A DNA stretch of 12,951 nt. Source: Promethearchaeota archaeon. GTDB lineage: Archaea; Asgardarchaeota; Lokiarchaeia; Sigynarchaeales; SOKP01. This document shows positions 1 through 12,928 of this stretch, in pieces. The DNA is taken from the NCBI GenBank assembly GCA_019894875.1, contig JAGXNR010000081.1:1-12951 (forward strand), written 5' to 3'. The notes beneath the pieces were generated by a model that made no database searches, had not been told where the DNA came from, and saw nothing but the letters and a program-made list of their open reading frames with translations. Every line of letters starts with the position of its first letter. The first letter of the stretch is position 1. The position numbers and the translations under genes were made by a program.

Positions 1-372
1 TATATTGGTCGTGAAACTCTCGGGTTTTTCAGCTGCCGCGGACATCATTGCAGGACCGCAATACGAGATACCAAGACTGGCGATGATGGCTGTGCTACAC
101 ATTGTTATTGAGGCAAGCATGGCTTGTATTGCTTGATCTTCAGTCACGATATCGGGTATTCGGGCTATAATCATAAATGCTATAAGCAACCCATAGATAG
201 CCAGAGCCTCTCCTAAAATGATTGTGATCAACAACTTGCTCCCTAATTCGGGCTTTTCTGAAGTCACTGAGGCAAGCGCTGGTGCACAAGTTTTTATTGA
301 ATATAAGGCCGCTCCGGCACATACAATAATACAAATAGCTGCTGCGAAAACTGCTATCATACTTGGTTCCAT
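1..372 (-). CDS. atpK: A/V-type ATPase subunit K (membrane rotor proteolipid c), C-terminus cut off by window edge
   Basis: Rotor-ring subunit of the archaeal rotary ATPase; carries H+ or Na+ across the membrane against subunit I. I translated it by hand: 124 codons are visible from ATG at 372, and the frame is still open at position 1. Residues 5-35 form helix 1, and 45-70 form helix 2 with LGEALAIYGLLIA, where Glu55 is the expected ion-carrying carboxylate. Residues 83-115 begin a second hairpin (SLGISYCGPAMMSAAAEKPE), so the protein is a four-helix, V-type-like proteolipid and not the two-helix form. Helix 1 lacks the usual glycine-rich GxGxG packing motif and has two Cys. The residue after Glu55 is Ala, not the polar residue often seen in Na+ rings, which weakly favours H+. 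The gene starts 29 bp after the subunit I stop and has its own ribosome binding site, fitting the conserved I-K gene order. Confidence 0.9.
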   Translation of the reverse strand, partial: MEPSMIAVFAAAICIIVCAGAALYSIKTCAPALASVTSEKPELGSKLLITIILGEALAIYGLLIAFMIIARIPDIVTEDQAIQAMLASITMCSTAIIASLGISYCGPAMMSAAAEKPESFTTNI

Positions 373-401: not shown

Positions 402-2213
402 TTATTTGATTTTTATTGGTTCAAATAGAATTCCGTCTGCGGAATAAAATTTGGGGAGTAATTCAATCCAATGGAGTCTTAGACAATGAACCATAACAAG
501 AAGTCCTTCAATGGCTATTGACAAGACCGTACCAACCGCGATTAACGGAATAGCACTTAAAGGGATAAATCCGTACTCAACTCCGGCAAGCTCGAGGAAC
601 ATGCTGCTTAATGCTGTATGGGTTAAAAATAAGGCGGCAAGACGACAAAACGATAAAGTGTGGCCTAACGACTCGATGAAAACTTCAATGGTAAAGTCAA
701 TACCCTCCATGAAATTTTCAGCCTTTGCCATAGCGAACAACATGACAACCAAGGGTGCTATGACGAGAAACAAGAACATTTGAAGGCCCGCGCCGAACCA
801 AACGGTAATTTGTGAAATACCGCCCCAATAAAACCACATGGTGAACCCGCCAAGGAGAAACCATATCCAGCAAAAGGCGACGAGTGAATGTGCCACCTCT
901 CCTCTCCTGAGGTGGTTTAGTACACGTAAAACCAAAGCGAACGTGATAAAGGCAACACCAATTAATATGGTGAATCTCAATAGTGTAAGTGGTTCATGCA
1001 TGGGATCGAACCCGCCGATCTTGAAGGGACCGATTTCAAGCAACAAAATGGGATGGAGAACTCCAGATGGACCGAAATATTCACCAAATAATAAACCCCA
1101 ACCCATCGCGGATATACCACAAAATGTTATTATTCCCGCAGAACGCAAAAGACCTCTCGGAATTTCCCCCACTTTATTGATATCAACCCTGGCTCTCAAG
1201 AAAAGAAGCAATATGCCCCCGATAAAGAGAATTAAGCCTTGACCAACATCGGCAAACATAATGCCAAAGAGGAATGGAAATGTAATTGCTACCAAATAAG
1301 TCGGATTAATTTCTCCCCTGCGTGGATATCCAAGGGCAAATGTTAGAGTTTGAAATCCCTCAAACAACGCGGGAGGGCGTTTGATAACATTAGGTACGTT
1401 ATCTTTGGATTTAGCTTTTTCCACCTCGATAACGCATTTGCCATTTGTGATCTCCAATATCCCCTCTTTTATTTTTAGAATCGGTTTTTTCAAAACCCAA
1501 GCTTCAAAATAAACGATGTTATCACATTGGGCCATATCGTTTTCTGCTTCAAGAAGAGCATCAACCTCCAGCGTCATTCCATGAAGATCCGAGAGAGTTG
1601 ATTGGATTGTGTCTAATTCAGGAATTTCCATACTGGAACGTTCTTCGGAATACTCAGCACTTCGCAAAGTTAAAAATTGTCTAGCAGTCTCCTCTAATTG
1701 AGTGTTGATAGCAGATAGATTGCGTTTGGTCTCTAAAAGCACCTCTTCCGAAGTTAGTTGTTCGGTAGGAGGTTTATTTTTTGATTTTGATTTTGATTTT
1801 TTAGGTGTCCCTTTCCACGCTTGGAGTTGTTGATCTGTTTTTTTTATCAAGGTAGAAGCTAAATCGAGTAATTTGAGAATAGGGTTTGATTGTGCCTCAA
1901 TTTCCGTTAACTTCTGCTCCATGTTAGAAAGAATTTCTTTAATCGTGTTTCCCGATAAGAGCGCCGCATCACCAATTACGCCATCGCGTTTTAAATCTAA
2001 TTCATCAAATTTCCTTTCAATTCGTGTTTGGATCTCTGAATTCATTTGCAATTCATCCTTAGGAATTGGACATGCTTGTAAGAACCCGGTATATGACTCC
2101 TCTTCACAATCAACATTGATATATTGAGCAACTCCCAGTTTGCTAAGGAAGAGAAGAACTGGCTCCTGGTGTCTTTCGAGTAATATTACCTTGAGTTTTC
2201 GTAGACTTGGCAT
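402..2213 (-). CDS. atpI: A/V-type ATPase subunit I (homologue of yeast V-ATPase subunit a)
   Basis: Stator membrane subunit that forms the ion half-channels next to the K ring and links to the peripheral stalk. It has 603 residues, slightly short for the family (usually about 640-700). Residues 1-280 are the cytosolic coiled-coil arm with two alpha/beta lobes. Residues 300-603 hold about eight helices, starting with the family motif PTYLVAITFPFLFGIMFADVG (303-323). The proton-path residues are present: Arg524 in GHTLSFCRLAALFLTH, and Glu569 and Arg579 in IEGLLVMVHCLRLHWIE, matching yeast Vph1 Arg735, Glu789 and Arg799. A Lys-Ser-rich run (137-147) in the coiled coil comes from a short DNA repeat. 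The ATG start is followed by a normal family N-terminus. No clear ribosome binding site precedes it, so a short leader from the TATA-like box at 2267-2276 is likely. Subunit H, often the gene before I in archaea, is absent here. Confidence 0.96.
   Translation of the reverse strand: MPSLRKLKVILLERHQEPVLLFLSKLGVAQYINVDCEEESYTGFLQACPIPKDELQMNSEIQTRIERKFDELDLKRDGVIGDAALLSGNTIKEILSNMEQKLTEIEAQSNPILKLLDLASTLIKKTDQQLQAWKGTPKKSKSKSKNKPPTEQLTSEEVLLETKRNLSAINTQLEETARQFLTLRSAEYSEERSSMEIPELDTIQSTLSDLHGMTLEVDALLEAENDMAQCDNIVYFEAWVLKKPILKIKEGILEITNGKCVIEVEKAKSKDNVPNVIKRPPALFEGFQTLTFALGYPRRGEINPTYLVAITFPFLFGIMFADVGQGLILFIGGILLLFLRARVDINKVGEIPRGLLRSAGIITFCGISAMGWGLLFGEYFGPSGVLHPILLLEIGPFKIGGFDPMHEPLTLLRFTILIGVAFITFALVLRVLNHLRRGEVAHSLVAFCWIWFLLGGFTMWFYWGGISQITVWFGAGLQMFLFLVIAPLVVMLFAMAKAENFMEGIDFTIEVFIESLGHTLSFCRLAALFLTHTALSSMFLELAGVEYGFIPLSAIPLIAVGTVLSIAIEGLLVMVHCLRLHWIELLPKFYSADGILFEPIKIK
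1783..1800. repeat. Three exact copies of GATTTT inside atpI
   Basis: A hexanucleotide microsatellite. On the coding strand it is AAAATC three times and yields alternating Lys and Ser in the tip region of the stator coiled coil. Such repeats can change length by slippage in steps of two residues without breaking the frame. Confidence 0.8.
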
Positions 2214-2617: not shown

Positions 2618-4630
2618 TTAATGATGAGAGAATAAAGAAAGAACTGATTCAAAGACAACTATTACTATTATAAATAATATAATACCCAATAGAAAATAAA
2701 GCGGTTTTCCACTCTCATTTTCAGGTAATACTTCTCTTATTATTGTATAAAGGATAACTCCTGAAATGAAAGAAAACATTATAAATACAATATCCATTGA
2801 GATGTGAAACACTACCGTTAATATTACACCAATCAAAACACCAAACACGGCTGATGAGGCAAAAAAGATCTCTTTATAAAGTGGCTCATGATGTCCTGAC
2901 TTTATTTCTATACTCGGAAAGAGCTGAACTTTATTTGATGTTTTAGATATTAAAGCTTTGAAAAAAGCGAAAACAAAAAATAAAATTCCCGTGGTATATT
3001 CATGAACTAATAATTCGAAAAGTATGATTCCAATTAACAAATGATACCCAAAATTAGTGTACTGGTGGAGTAAGTCTAAGTAATCGTTTATATGGTTTTG
3101 GATCTTAGCTTTTAACCTAGTATTTTGCATTTCAAGTTCTTCTTCACGCTGACAAAATGTATTTAATTTTGAAGCTATTTGTGATAAATTTAGTCTGGTA
3201 TCCTCTTTATCCATTATTTTATCTAACACCGAAGCCCCGAACATTTTTTCTTTTTCTATACACTCTGCTTGAAACATAAATGAATTTTTTAACTCAAGTA
3301 AATTTTCAGTTAGTTCTAATAATGAAAGCTTTTTTTGGTTATCTCCCATTAATCCTTTTACTAAAGAATTCTCAAGATCCCTCTCTTTTATCATAGATTC
3401 TTTTTGTTCTTTACGTATCCTCTCATATGAATTTAAATTTTCGATAAAATCTTCATTTGAGAGTTGAGTATGATGACTCTCTTGTAGCGCATCTCTAAAT
3501 GATTTCCTTAGTATCTCTTCTTCTTCTAGGTATAAACTTCTTATTGTTGATATCTCATTTAAAGCTGAAAGATTGCTTAATATTGAGAGTTTATCTATGT
3601 CACCTTCAATTATGTCTTCCTCAAGTTCTTTTTCCTCTAAATAACAAAATTCTTGAAATTTTGCGATCTCTTGCAACGCACATACTTGTCCAACTAATCT
3701 AAACTCCTGATCCCCCCCAACGTAATCTTCTTTTAATGTAAATAACATAGCTTCTTCAAGATCATCTTCTCTTTCTACACAATCCTCATGTATTTTAGAG
3801 ATATTCTTCAACTCACTAAATTTTAAAGATAAATCTTCTTCTGAAAGTCTATCCTGGTTTTGGTGATTATTCATATAATTTTTTATTACAATGTTCTCAA
3901 GGTTCTGTTCTATTTCTAAAAATTCCACTTCTTTTTTATATAACTCTTTTAACATATTTAATTTTACCAATAGGTCTCGGTCTCTTACGGAAGATTTGTC
4001 TTGCTCATTTGGCAATAATTTTTTTAATAAAGAACTATGAAGTTTTCTCTCTTCTTCTACGCATTTTTCATGCATTTTTGAGATCTGCTTTAATGCTGAA
4101 AGTTTGTTTAATATTGCGAGGCTATTATTATTAGAAATATCTAATTTTTCCTCAAGATTCTTTTCTTTTTCAAAACATATATATTGCATTTTACAGATCT
4201 CTCTTAATGCAAATAATCTTTCAGCAATTTTCATATAAGAATTTTTTTTCTCATCATCTCCTATTATTTTTTTTATTAAAGATTTCTCAATTTTCTTCTC
4301 TTTTAATGTTATTTCAGCTTCTTCTTTATATAATTCCTTTAATTTTAACTGAGATTTATTCTCTACACGTAGCAAAATAAATTTTTCTGTAAGATGAATG
4401 GTACAAAACCCAATCAGGATACCCACATATCTAAACAATTCAAATGGGAAATGTTCCAGACCGATCTCAATTTCAGGTAATAATATAATAAAAAAATATG
4501 TAATTGTTACTCCCGCAATAAGAGATGTTTGTATCTCCCGAGTTTTATTTTCATTATATACATCAACAATGAAAAAAATACTCCCAAAGATTAATCCAAG
4601 ACTTAATGGAAAAATAATATCAACAGACAC
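2618..4630 (-). CDS. ZIP-family-like membrane protein with a large coiled-coil repeat insert
   Basis: Not a named family as a whole. Residues 5-23, 37-55 and 64-88 look like ZIP metal-transporter helices 1-3; SLIAGVTITYFFIILLPEIE matches the ZIP helix-2 pattern AGxxLxxxLLxLLPE. Residues 94-515 are about ten helical repeats of 38-47 residues. Residues 525-666 look like ZIP helices 4-8, with FSFISGVILYTIIREVLPEN (618-637) matching the helix 7/8 pattern AfaaGxflYxxlxellPe. The insert sits where real ZIP transporters have a cytosolic His-rich loop. The metal-binding motifs are not visible: helix 4 has YHLLIGI instead of HNxxDG, and helix 5 has KALISK instead of HExPxE. Ion transport is therefore doubtful; scaffold or sensor roles are possible. 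Start is GTG, since a TAA lies in frame two codons upstream, and a TATA-like box 26 nt away suggests a leaderless message. ZIP resemblance is my inference; the helix count and repeats are seen directly. Confidence 0.7.
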   Translation of the reverse strand: MSVDIIFPLSLGLIFGSIFFIVDVYNENKTREIQTSLIAGVTITYFFIILLPEIEIGLEHFPFELFRYVGILIGFCTIHLTEKFILLRVENKSQLKLKELYKEEAEITLKEKKIEKSLIKKIIGDDEKKNSYMKIAERLFALREICKMQYICFEKEKNLEEKLDISNNNSLAILNKLSALKQISKMHEKCVEEERKLHSSLLKKLLPNEQDKSSVRDRDLLVKLNMLKELYKKEVEFLEIEQNLENIVIKNYMNNHQNQDRLSEEDLSLKFSELKNISKIHEDCVEREDDLEEAMLFTLKEDYVGGDQEFRLVGQVCALQEIAKFQEFCYLEEKELEEDIIEGDIDKLSILSNLSALNEISTIRSLYLEEEEILRKSFRDALQESHHTQLSNEDFIENLNSYERIRKEQKESMIKERDLENSLVKGLMGDNQKKLSLLELTENLLELKNSFMFQAECIEKEKMFGASVLDKIMDKEDTRLNLSQIASKLNTFCQREEELEMQNTRLKAKIQNHINDYLDLLHQYTNFGYHLLIGIILFELLVHEYTTGILFFVFAFFKALISKTSNKVQLFPSIEIKSGHHEPLYKEIFFASSAVFGVLIGVILTVVFHISMDIVFIMFSFISGVILYTIIREVLPENESGKPLYFLLGIILFIIVIVVFESVLSLFSHH
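3083..4351 (-). repeat. Ten tandem protein repeats (38, 45 or 47 residues) encoded in the insert
   Basis: Repeats begin near residues 94, 138, 176, 223, 270, 315, 353, 398, 443 and 488. The shared pattern is KLsaLkeIsKmqexcxexEkxLexsllkkLm, then a polar loop. Repeats 2 and 6 lack seven residues (one heptad) against the 45-residue form. The copies have diverged at DNA level, so the array is old and not a recent expansion. Confidence 0.75.
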
Positions 4631-4704: not shown

Positions 4705-5301
4705 CTACGGTTTGAACCATTCAAAGAAATAATAAGATTTTGTGAGTGGATTCGCGATAACGAATTTTTTCCTCACAGAGGTTGCCAACCTTCCTGCTCG
4801 AACCATATCAATTGCTGTGATTTCAGAATCATGTGGTAAGACGTGGACCATAAAGAGGGAATGTTCAAGCCCGGGACCTTTCTTATAAACAACAAAATCT
4901 GCACCAAATTTAAGACCTGGTCTGGGAATGTACTTCTTTTCCCTTAAATCTTTATAAATGATATATTTTTCCTCAAATTTGTTATGGATATTTTTAGCAA
5001 TCTTGAAAAACTCCTTAGGATTTAAATCTTTTTTCTCTTTCACATCATAAATAGTGATTTCATTTTTTTCTAATAAATAATAAGCTTCAATTAACGATAA
5101 CTCACTTGGTTTTGAAAAATATTCTAATCGGGGTTTATTAATCCCTAAGGGGCTACCATAAAATCCCTTTTTTACATATAAATACGACGCGAATAATGGA
5201 TTGAACACTATAACTCTCGAATTGATAAATTTAGTTGGAATCTTTTCTGGTACTTCAATTTCATCAAGATTTATTTGGTTATCCTTTACTTCATTCATCA
5301 T
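4705..5301 (-). CDS. endA: tRNA splicing endonuclease (tRNA-intron lyase), EndA type
   Basis: Cuts introns out of precursor tRNA at the bulge-helix-bulge, leaving 2',3'-cyclic phosphate and 5'-OH ends. It has 198 residues. The C-terminal catalytic domain is clear: YKDLREKKYIPRPGLKFGADF (116-136), then the triad Tyr138 (FVVYKKG), His147 (EHSLFMVHV) and Lys178 (SVRKKF), spaced like Tyr115, His125 and Lys156 of the Methanocaldococcus enzyme. An N-terminal domain (about 25-105) precedes it. The length fits a single-repeat subunit, so the enzyme is a homotetramer or the catalytic half of a heterotetramer; the fused two-repeat form is excluded. The start has two ATG codons in a row; the first is used here. 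There is no ribosome binding site, which fits a leaderless message from the divergent region shared with MEMO. The ZIP-like gene follows after 74 nt. Confidence 0.95.
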   Translation of the reverse strand: MMNEVKDNQINLDEIEVPEKIPTKFINSRVIVFNPLFASYLYVKKGFYGSPLGINKPRLEYFSKPSELSLIEAYYLLEKNEITIYDVKEKKDLNPKEFFKIAKNIHNKFEEKYIIYKDLREKKYIPRPGLKFGADFVVYKKGPGLEHSLFMVHVLPHDSEITAIDMVRAGRLATSVRKKFVIANPLTKSYYFFEWFKP

Positions 5302-6372: not shown

Positions 6373-7542
6373 ATGCCAGACGAAGAGGAAAAAGTGGAAG
6401 ATTTTATTAGTTTATGGCGTAAAAAGATGATAGATGACCCCAAAAAACCAGATATTGATAGGGAAACATTTGATCGTATTAAAGGCTTAGAAGAAGAAAA
6501 TAACAGATTAAGGACTAAAATAACTGAAAATATAGAACTCATAAGTAAAACAGAAGATTTTGTTAGGAAAACTATTGAAGAAAATACTAGATTAAAAGAA
6601 GAGATTAAACAAGGATCCTCACAAGGGGTAAATCAAGTTAAAGATCTTCAAAGGGAAAATCTTGATCTTTCTAACAGGATTAAAAGCTTAATAAATAGTT
6701 TAACTGAAAAAGATAATATTATAACTGTCAAAGACAATGAAATAAGCCTTAAAAATAATGAATTAATCATCAAAGTTAATGAAATAGCTGAATTGAATTT
6801 GAGATTAAATGAAGCACAATCTGCTGTAGAATTTATGGCGGACACCGCCCCCGAAGACAATTCTGACGCATTTAATGCTCTTATTGAAGATTTACAGTCA
6901 GAACTAGCTAAAAAGAAATCACAAATTAGTGGGTTGGAGGGTAATATTGGAGAATTAGAAACAGAAATAGCAAAATTAAATGAGAAGCTAATTGAAAAAG
7001 AGAAAAAATCACCTGTTGATTACGTTATTCCTGTTGAAACCCCAAAACCTGAAGTTTTAAAACCTCAACCTGCTCAAACATCATCAAACACTCTAGAAAT
7101 TTTATGTCAAGACTTACAAGCAGATTTAAATAAATATAAGCGTATAGTAGATAATTTAGCTAAGGAAAAATCTGAACTAAAGGAACAATTTGAAAGCGGT
7201 GGTTTCAAACTAGAACCAGATGAGATCAAAGAATTAAAAAAGGAAAATGAAGCTCTAAAAACCGATCTTTCTCAATTACAAGAAACTTTACAAGAAAAAT
7301 CTAAAGCCACTCCAGAAACCCTCTCCCTTGTAGAATCTGAAAGACTAGTTGAAGACCTCAAAGAACAACTAAAACTTAAAGATAATTTGATAAAGGAATT
7401 GAAAACACCACCTCAAACTCAGATAATAACACCAAAAGGTCCAATGTCTGGTTTGGTTGAAGAATTGCAAAATAATATAAATAAATTAAAAATAGCATTA
7501 GAGGAAAAGAATAATATAATTGAAAAATTAAAATCATCATAA
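6373..7542 (+). CDS. Cytosolic coiled-coil protein with four LxxLQ-type repeats
   Basis: I do not recognise a named family. The 389 residues are nearly all charged heptad coiled coil, with no signal peptide or membrane helix. An acidic start with FISLWRKKM (residues 11-19) precedes the coil. A short module recurs at about 169-190, 241-266, 323-345 and 360-387, pattern L(V/I/C)xDLQxxLxKxK; at least three of the four follow a Pro- or Ser/Thr-rich linker (notably 213-240 and 346-359). The separated coils look like a flexible chain of similar binding units. AAAGGA (6365-6370) lies close before the ATG. The stop is followed with no gap by the ATG of the PfkB-like kinase, so translation is probably coupled and the two proteins may work together. 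A structural or scaffold role is inference. Confidence 0.85.
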   Translation: MPDEEEKVEDFISLWRKKMIDDPKKPDIDRETFDRIKGLEEENNRLRTKITENIELISKTEDFVRKTIEENTRLKEEIKQGSSQGVNQVKDLQRENLDLSNRIKSLINSLTEKDNIITVKDNEISLKNNELIIKVNEIAELNLRLNEAQSAVEFMADTAPEDNSDAFNALIEDLQSELAKKKSQISGLEGNIGELETEIAKLNEKLIEKEKKSPVDYVIPVETPKPEVLKPQPAQTSSNTLEILCQDLQADLNKYKRIVDNLAKEKSELKEQFESGGFKLEPDEIKELKKENEALKTDLSQLQETLQEKSKATPETLSLVESERLVEDLKEQLKLKDNLIKELKTPPQTQIITPKGPMSGLVEELQNNINKLKIALEEKNNIIEKLKSS

Positions 7543-9216: not shown

Positions 9217-9223
9217 AGGTGAT
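9217..9223 (+). promoter_or_regulatory. Consensus ribosome binding site before an AUU codon
   Basis: AGGTGAT is a perfect match to the archaeal consensus and ends 4 nt before ATT at 9228. The GTG called by ordinary rules (9219-9221) lies inside this motif and so is unlikely to be the start. Alignment to the neighbouring paralogue also places residue 1 at 9228. Confidence 0.55.
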
Positions 9224-9227
9224 TATT

Positions 9228-9695
9228 ATTTCAGATGATATTAAAACAAAAGTTGGGATTAAATTGGATGAATCTGAATCTCAGATGATATTCAAATGCG
9301 ATTTAGGGAATTTAAAGGTTAAAGATTGTTATATTGATGAAGAACATCATGAAGAAGTTGATATGCTTGGTCCTAATCCCTCTAGACTATTAGCTTTAGG
9401 GGTTTTAGGATGCTTAAGTGCAAGCTTCATATTTTGCTTAAAAAAGAGGAATTTTAAACTAGATGATTTTGCAGCTGAAGCGGAGGTTGTTATTACTAGA
9501 AATGAGAAAGGTTTTTGGAGAATTAAAAAAATTGATGTTAACATACTGCCAAAAATAACCGATCCTGACGCCCTTAAAAGAGCAAAACAATGTTTAAAAC
9601 CTCTAAAGGATGGTGTAAGTTATTTCGAACAATATTGTATTGTTACACAATCAGTAAGATCTGGGATCGAAGTAAATGTAAATCTTGATCTGTAA
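9228..9695 (+). CDS. OsmC/Ohr-family protein, first of a tandem pair, probable AUU start
   Basis: Thiol-dependent peroxidase family acting on organic hydroperoxides, cytosolic. Family hallmarks, numbered from the GTG at 9219: GPNPSRLLALGVLGCLSASF (51-70) with the first reactive Cys65, and FEQYCIVTQSVRSGIEV (136-152) with the second Cys140. The middle strand region is AEVVITRNEKGFWRIKKIDV. Extra Cys at 27, 37, 73 and 125 make it Cys-rich. The downstream paralogue begins MSNVLKSKVG, and this one reads ISDDIKTKVG at the matching place, so the Ile codon ATT at 9228 is probably the initiator. The conventional GTG start at 9219 adds only three Ile-like residues. Compared with the second copy it has seven more residues before the second Cys. 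The exact substrate is unknown. Confidence 0.85.
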   Translation: MSDDIKTKVGIKLDESESQMIFKCDLGNLKVKDCYIDEEHHEEVDMLGPNPSRLLALGVLGCLSASFIFCLKKRNFKLDDFAAEAEVVITRNEKGFWRIKKIDVNILPKITDPDALKRAKQCLKPLKDGVSYFEQYCIVTQSVRSGIEVNVNLDL

Positions 9696-9742: not shown

Positions 9743-10180
9743 ATGTCAAATGTGTTAAAGTCCAAAGTTGGTTTAAAACAAAAAGAAGATTTGATTTTTA
9801 AATGTAATCTTGGGAACCTTAGCAATGTTAACTTATATATTGATGAAAGAAATAAAAAAGAAAATGAAAAAATAGGACCTTCCCCTGCTAAATTATTAGC
9901 ATTATCTGTCCTAGGTTGTTTAGCATTAAGTTTTTCATTTTGTCTTAAAAAAGAAAATTTTTCATTATCGGGATTTGAAGGAAACGCTGAAGTCATAATC
10001 ACTAGAAATGACAAAGCATTCTGGAGAGTGAAGAAAATTAATGTAGAAATGAATCCTAAAATTGATTCCCCCGAAATGCGTAAAAGAGCAGATCAATGTA
10101 GAAATTTTTTTGAGCAATATTGTATTATTTCAGAATCTTTAAGATCTGGATTCGAAGTGAATGTCAATCTAAATTATTGA
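9743..10180 (+). CDS. OsmC/Ohr-family protein, second of a tandem pair
   Basis: Paralogue of the preceding gene, same family and likely role in reducing hydroperoxides. It has 145 residues from ATG, with AGGCTGAT as ribosome binding site 5 nt upstream. Reactive cysteines are Cys59 in GPSPAKLLALSVLGCLALSF (45-64) and Cys127 in FEQYCIISESLRSGFEV (123-139). Cys21, Cys67 and Cys119 are shared with the first copy. Blocks such as VLGCL, FCLKK, ITRN, FEQYC and EVNVNL are identical between the two, so this is a local duplication that has since diverged, probably to form a heteromer or to change substrate. OsmC proteins work as intertwined dimers. The gene ends 44 nt from the convergent RadA stop, and TTTTATTTTA directly after its stop may end transcription. 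Confidence 0.93.
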   Translation: MSNVLKSKVGLKQKEDLIFKCNLGNLSNVNLYIDERNKKENEKIGPSPAKLLALSVLGCLALSFSFCLKKENFSLSGFEGNAEVIITRNDKAFWRVKKINVEMNPKIDSPEMRKRADQCRNFFEQYCIISESLRSGFEVNVNLNY

Positions 10181-12104: not shown

Positions 12105-12928
12105 TTAGAGTTCTGAAATAATTTTTTCTAATTCGTCGATCATTGCCTGGGCTTTATTTTTATCTTCAGATTCAGCCGATAGAATCACTGCGTTTCTATG
12201 TAACGCTACTTTAATTAGAACATATCCATAATCATTAATGATTTTCAATTCATTTATTATATCGTGATATTGATAATTTTTTTCTTCTGCCATTTCCCTT
12301 AATCGATTATGGATGTTGTCGAGTAATTCCGAGGAGATCGGAACGGTTTTATTAATTTTAATACCTTTGGGAAATCCTTTAATTAACGAGCTTAGAAGGT
12401 CATTTTGAGTTGTCATAATTTCAAGAATTTTCAATAAAATAAAATTTCCGTCGCTGAATGGGGAAAATTCTGGAAAGCAAAACTTTAACGTATCTGCTGC
12501 TGCAAAACAGGCTCTTTCTTCTCTGATTTGTCTAGATATCTCTCCAGGATAATTCTCAACTTGTTTAATCGGAAATCCACCATCTTCAATAAATTTCTTC
12601 ACAACCGGAGATAATGAAGGCGTTGTAATAACGGTATTTGACTTAGAATTTTGAATTCTTTTATCATATGATATAAATAACATCAATAATTCTTCAAAAC
12701 TTATTTCTAAGCCATTTTCATCAATTACTAATATTCTTGAACCGTCTACGTCAAAACATACACCAAGGTGACTATTTGATGCTTTAACAATATCCGCTGT
12801 ATTTCTTATTGTATTAATACTTGGTACGGGGCTAGCTGATCTCTCTCGATAATGAGTATTGAGCGCGATTACTTCGACACCAATATCATTAATTAGAAGT
12901 GGCGTAATTTCCCCTGTAGGTCCGTAGG
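12105..12928 (-). CDS. Phosphohexomutase-like protein (PGM/PMM family), 5' end missing, active-site residues lost
   Basis: C-terminal part of a protein of the alpha-D-phosphohexomutase family, which interconverts sugar 1- and 6-phosphates. The frame is open from the adapter junction (12928) to TAA at 12105, about 274 residues. A TTG at 12684 is only an internal Leu codon, because the family sequence continues upstream. Domain 2 ends in GVCFDVDGSRILVIDENG, where active enzymes have DGDxDR: the third metal-binding Asp is Ser (codons at 12735-12752). The sugar loop GGExSGH reads FPEFSPF (12456-12476). The C-terminal phosphate loop RxSGTEP reads KVALHRN (12192-12212), although the flanking strands (GYVLIKV, VILSAES) align. 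All three visible sites are altered, so a non-catalytic or reshaped paralogue is likely. The phosphoserine loop lies outside the window. No frameshift or stop is seen. Confidence 0.85.

Follow-up and report, generated by a model that had tools for sequence, protein, structure and literature searches.

A gene in a 12,951-nucleotide stretch of Promethearchaeota archaeon DNA (GenBank assembly GCA_019894875.1, contig JAGXNR010000081.1; "the window" hereafter means this whole stretch) encodes a protein in which a ZIP-fold membrane part is predicted to carry a cytoplasmic stalk with two duplicated four-helix bundles, which we call the long form. We favor the reading, at a probability of roughly 0.45, that this protein is a non-transporting, ZIP-derived membrane scaffold that serves an alternative A/V-type ATPase as an accessory part. 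Our results support the predicted architecture, the duplication of the bundles, the missing metal motifs, a relative without bundles, and linkage to ATPase genes in 2 loci read directly. Loss of transport, and a partnership with the ATPase that would involve physical contact between the two and a stator role, are what we infer.

An eight-helix membrane part related to ZIP transporters

The hydrophobic stretches of the window protein are confined to residues 1-89 and 524-670, and the structure model places membrane helices (TM1 to TM8) at approximately residues 3-29, 35-57, 64-90, 521-543, 545-565, 584-608 (with a break), 612-634, and 643-667. The protein resembles ZIP transporters (SLC39, PF02535; prototype BbZIP) in having eight membrane helices in the same order, in the conserved ends of TM2 (LLPE) and TM7 (REVLPE), and in the position of its insert, which sits in the TM3-TM4 cytoplasmic loop. 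In an alignment of 32 of the 35 long-form clusters described below (A1), the strongest conservation is found in some stretches of the membrane helices, especially around ILYTIIREVLPEN in TM7. A preliminary description, made from the sequence alone, had proposed an eight-helix ZIP-like protein, and 2 lines of comparison agree with it: the window family matches ZIP in profile comparison (the controls of one such comparison being four single sequences, not profiles), and the structure model matches ZIP structure entries on realignment, though no ZIP chain was among the best 50 matches listed by Foldseek for either of our models. The first of these models, built from long forms alone, was weaker in the membrane part, which improved when short forms were added.

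Against the Pfam Zip profile, the window protein scores 18 bits, below the gathering cut-off of 35.1; the short form P0036 scores 31.7 bits. A profile search against solved structures returned three matches only (E-values 0.32-3.7), none of them a ZIP, and NCBIfam gave nothing above cut-off, while PF02535 appears in the database pre-annotation of 3 of the 35 long-form clusters. Lacking the metal motifs discussed below, the protein is a ZIP-fold relative and not a recognizable zinc transporter. Of the defining features of ZIP transporters that we tested, it lacks two, the Pfam score and the metal motifs.

A predicted cytoplasmic stalk with two duplicated bundles

Unlike the loop of ZIP transporters, the TM3-TM4 loop of the window protein comprises some 430 residues (approximately 91-520), a length that is nearly constant among homologs, and is modeled as a stalk and two four-helix bundles. 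It contains a four-helix module of about 177 residues in two copies; the model resolves the insert into eight separate helices, each of 36-39 residues, and two stalk strands, and in the comparison of the repeats neither the unrelated-coil nor the reversed controls gave a match. The preliminary description had placed a coiled-coil insert of over 400 residues here: its length and repetitive nature were confirmed, but it consists of two four-helix modules, and a single long coiled coil is rejected on the basis of the model and these controls. One observation does not fit neatly, in that the stalk profile weakly matches one helix of bundle 2 (57.5%, P 1e-4), with 15.6% for bundle 1; the bundles may therefore have descended from the stalk.

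Distribution of the long form and its relatives

A search of 5.8 billion proteins, in which length limits were applied and 7,996 candidates were scored, yielded 35 long-form clusters including the window's own, the others being 45-71% identical to the window protein. Because 31 of them (again including the window's own) are full length, with 651-670 residues, the long insert is, on this sequence evidence, not due to chance, and a fused-gene or reading-frame artefact is ruled out. The remaining four have 499, 597, 561, and 524 residues, one being labeled partial, and the start site is common to most aligned homologs. Organisms are named for three clusters, as Promethearchaeota or Lokiarchaeia. 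Some relative is encoded in 72 of 227 genomes of the phylum, and the layout that the preliminary description had suggested looking for in Asgard genomes was found at locus L001 (genome G001) and in no other of these genomes, for each of which five candidates at most were scored and many of which resemble metagenome bins, so that absences are soft. A first scan of genome contigs with the single window protein found no relative, and none was seen in viral contigs (plasmids were not searched).

A close comparison is offered by a 320-residue relative, the short form, found in seven named Lokiarchaeota loci (L002-L008), for which we know of no accepted name. Its profile matches 565 proteins at E ≤ 1e-3, and we listed the 120 best of these. 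Alignment shows all eight helices in the short form, which also has an equivalent of the stalk hairpin and likewise lacks the metal motifs, but differs by the absence of the bundles: it aligns over the membrane part and the stalk at 36-43% identity, with a single gap where the bundles would be. In an alignment of 67 rows (A3, in which the short form P0076 is present twice), TM2 and TM7 are the helices that differ least between the long and the short form (61 and 63% identity); in BbZIP, both are part of the scaffold domain, which comprises TM2, 3, 7, and 8 (PMC9278863). A tree of 59 proteins, which covers 16 of the 35 long forms and comes with a warning of long branches, places these 16 in one group (99/100) with the short forms outside; less neatly, the distant L093 branches close to the long group, and some divergent sequences are interspersed among the short forms. 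In more distant relatives, the loop is almost absent (L107) or short and non-helical-looking (L094-L097, L104-L106). The proteins with the short loop are 277-283-residue Asgard membrane proteins, related to the ZIP-like proteins and without metal motifs; for L096, the one compared with Pfam, no match was obtained at E ≤ 0.001.

Probable loss of the zinc site

PMC9873690 gives the binuclear metal center of BbZIP as M99, H177, N178, E181, Q207, D208, E211, and E240. We scored the motifs that carry most of these residues (H[NDS]xx[DE]G in TM4 and H[ED]xPx[EQ] in TM5, which do not cover the positions of M99 and E240), and none of the 172 sequences examined has either: HNxxEG and HExPE are missing from all 35 long, all 121 short, and all 16 divergent sequences. 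Canonical lokiarchaeal ZIPs have the TM4 motif in 8 of 8 cases and the TM5 motif in five, the other three having a second HNIPEG. In the window protein, H530 and K558 stand where ZIPs carry HNxxEG and HExPE, respectively, within a profile alignment that does not reliably map single residues of TM4-TM6. H530 is kept in 29 of 32 A1 rows and replaced by Tyr in three, and K558 is invariant in long forms and Arg in the short forms shown. We read this as a probable loss of the zinc center, with a different site being possible.

An unlikely alternative is that the protein is a working, unusual ZIP-family transporter of metal or protons with a different set of ligands, in which the bundles would serve for regulation or metal buffering. 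Such a function would agree with the retained fold, with the invariance of H79, E82, H530, and E633 among both forms in A3 (an alignment without the three Tyr-530 long forms), and with the name "zinc transporter ZupT", which one source assigns to 3 of the 35 long-form clusters as a label and not as the result of a test. It is harder to reconcile with the complete lack of TM4 and TM5 motifs and the Lys/Arg in TM5, and G001, which encodes both a long and a short form, also encodes two canonical ZIPs with motifs that could cover metal uptake.

Linkage with an alternative A/V-type ATPase

A tRNA intron endonuclease gene stands on one side of the gene in both the window and L001. On the other side, the window has the genes for A/V-type ATPase subunits I and K, and L001 has an ATPase cluster consisting of E, F, A, B, D, C, and K by Pfam, I by similarity, and a small gene in the G/H position. 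The gene is therefore linked with an alternative A/V-type ATPase set in both loci. The same linkage is suggested in three more lineages by shared contig sizes. When the longest contig per cluster was compared (120 listed of 226 subunit I relatives, 118 of them with a size), the long-form clusters and the first 44 listed subunit I relatives had four identical sizes above 20 kb (21397, 23100, 32058, and 33228 bp). The 32058-bp contig encodes proteins nearly identical to those of L001, making it another assembly of L001's kind, so that five distinct cases are counted: the window, L001/P0022, P0006, P0027, and P0029, two of them direct and three (33228, 23100, and 21397 bp) inferred. Four of the eight long-form clusters on contigs above 20 kb have no size match, and one short size (2667) is common to the long forms and the other 74 subunit I relatives, presumably by chance. 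Among the best 120 short-form clusters listed, no longest-contig size is common with either subunit I set. In 30 short-form loci (L002-L008, L018-L046), no queried ATPase gene was found in the sequence covered, mostly 1.5 kb on each side; the neighbors include what we take to be a D-aminoacyl-tRNA-deacylase-like gene (23 loci) and an Lrp/AsnC-like regulator (19 loci).

Across the 227 genomes (matches with E ≤ 1e-30), a subunit I close to that of the window was found only in G001 (73-74% identity by piece) and G126 (69 and 58%), all others being at most 38% identical. G001 has the long form. In G126, no long form was found, and the cluster of this type is a partial second one at a separate genomic location, comprising I, K, C, D, and a fragment of B. 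By Pfam above cut-off, G001 has one subunit I, of the window type; G117, G125, G128, and G003 have one each of the other type; and G126 has both. The two types differ in the cytoplasmic arm, taken as the part of subunit I before the first membrane helix as located by motif: it has 228-329 residues (median 310) in the window type (41 of 44, those above 500 residues) and 355-451 residues (median 380) in the other relatives (69 of 70 located), while the membrane part has a median of 291 residues in both. As a separate observation, the two ATPase types alternate at the MEMO - tRNA-endonuclease site of Lokiarchaea (L047-L076, L087, L089-L091).

This site also raises the question whether the linkage is an inherited accident of the locus and the protein a structural tether or scaffold unrelated to the ATPase, which we consider improbable. 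The tRNA-endonuclease flank carries ATPase genes in 20 of the 30 lokiarchaeal loci read (from 82 genomes with a tRNA-endonuclease match, about 1.5 kb on each side), with an A subunit 44-51% identical to that of L001 or a subunit I 27-30% identical to that of the window, so that any gene inserted there would look linked. In addition, the identity between window and L001 is similar for subunit I (69-77% by piece) and the tRNA endonuclease (72%), and plain vertical inheritance of a linked pair is therefore also possible. On the other hand, the long form occurs in none of these 30 loci within the sequence read, and the linkage persists even though the window and L001 have these genes in different orders.

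With the stator and accessory parts of A/V-type ATPases (E, G/H, and I), the window family shares a membrane-tied cytoplasmic helical element and a gene beside ATPase genes. It differs in having no Pfam match to the ATPase subunits, bar a weak one to PF09527 (1 of 32, E 0.018), and because subunits A, B, C, D, E, F, K, and I are already present in L001, it would be an extra part.

Proposed role

In our favored reading of an ATPase-serving scaffold, the eight helices would anchor the protein in the membrane, and TM3 and TM4 would extend into the cytoplasm as a hairpin stalk bearing the two bundles. The protein would no longer transport zinc. Its most likely job would be that of an accessory of the alternative ATPase (an extra stator, assembly platform, or brake), because the gene accompanies the ATPase type whose subunit I has a shortened arm, which the cytoplasmic tower may offset. 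A more specific version, in which the bundles replace part of the subunit I arm and form a dedicated stator or brake that holds or regulates the catalytic head, seems rather unlikely. It is still less likely that the protein is a membrane sensor or receptor, in which a ligand on the ZIP bundle moves the stalk and the bundles relay the signal. According to PMC9278863, TM3 of BbZIP belongs to the scaffold domain and TM4 to the transport domain, so that a stalk built from both, as the model has it at low confidence, would report their relative movement; no signaling output domain was found among the window genes scanned. Of the interpretation offered in the preliminary description, a rod or bundle at the inner membrane face acting as scaffold, tether, or sensor, a part is thus supported.

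If the architecture is right, a metal-transporter fold has lost its metal motifs and been retained as a membrane scaffold, and a single archaeal phylum holds graded cytoplasmic loops, from almost none through a short non-helical-looking loop and a hairpin to a hairpin with two bundles. If the ATPase link is also true, an unexpected membrane part has been added to a rotary ATPase in Asgard archaea, the archaeal group held closest to eukaryotes. The apparent loss of the zinc site, the gain of the cytoplasmic tower, and the tendency of the gene to lie with the alternative ATPase genes point to a transporter fold taken into new use for support or control. A few queries of the open-licence literature found, in titles and abstract openings, neither a ZIP link to an archaeal ATPase nor a ZIP protein with such a layout, the latter in agreement with the preliminary description.

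Other features of the window

Table 1. Parts of the long-form gene and neighboring genes in the window (pLDDT, predicted local distance difference test).
Feature	Position	Strand	Basis or remark
Whole gene, ZIP-fold membrane protein with stalk and two four-helix bundles (long form)	2618..4630	-	670 residues, GTG start
Membrane helices 1-3 (residues 3-90)	4361..4624	-	Sub-threshold Pfam Zip match, residues 9-92
Stalk, hairpin strand 1 (residues 91-123)	4262..4360	-	Modeled as continuous with TM3, low confidence (block pLDDT 56-69); counterpart in 320-residue short form
Four-helix bundle 1 (residues 127-302)	3725..4252	-	Structure model and repeat comparison
Four-helix bundle 2 (residues 307-472), tandem duplicate of bundle 1	3215..3712	-	Structure model and repeat comparison
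Stalk, hairpin strand 2 (residues 482-520)	3071..3187	-	Modeled as continuous with TM4, low confidence (block pLDDT 51-70)
Membrane helices 4-8 (residues 521-667)	2630..3070	-	H530 in TM4, K558 in TM5, conserved SFISGVILYTIIREVLPEN in TM7
Subunit I (a), alternative A/V-type ATPase, short cytoplasmic arm; neighbor	402..2213	-	Similarity, Pfam
Proteolipid (c/K) subunit, same ATPase, cut by window end	1..372	-	76% identical to L001 copy, which Pfam calls ATP-synt_C
tRNA intron endonuclease, conserved flank of site often holding lokiarchaeal A/V-ATPase genes	4705..5301	-	Pfam, locus comparison

We looked for RNA families at the gathering threshold and for tRNAs in the window and saw none; promoter-like sites are rarer than in shuffled sequences, and the one terminator-like site is at chance level. 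A 389-residue coiled-coil protein is encoded between MEMO and PfkB (6373-7542); no family was above cut-off for it, and it has counterparts in L001, G117, and G126. Further on lie two similar adjacent genes (9219-9695 and 9743-10180), presumably OsmC-like, of which three related copies occur in a row in G126. Finally, a phosphoglucomutase-like gene has only its end open at 12105-12686 (193 residues, PF02880), compared with a frame of 462 residues in G126, with an in-frame stop upstream in the window.
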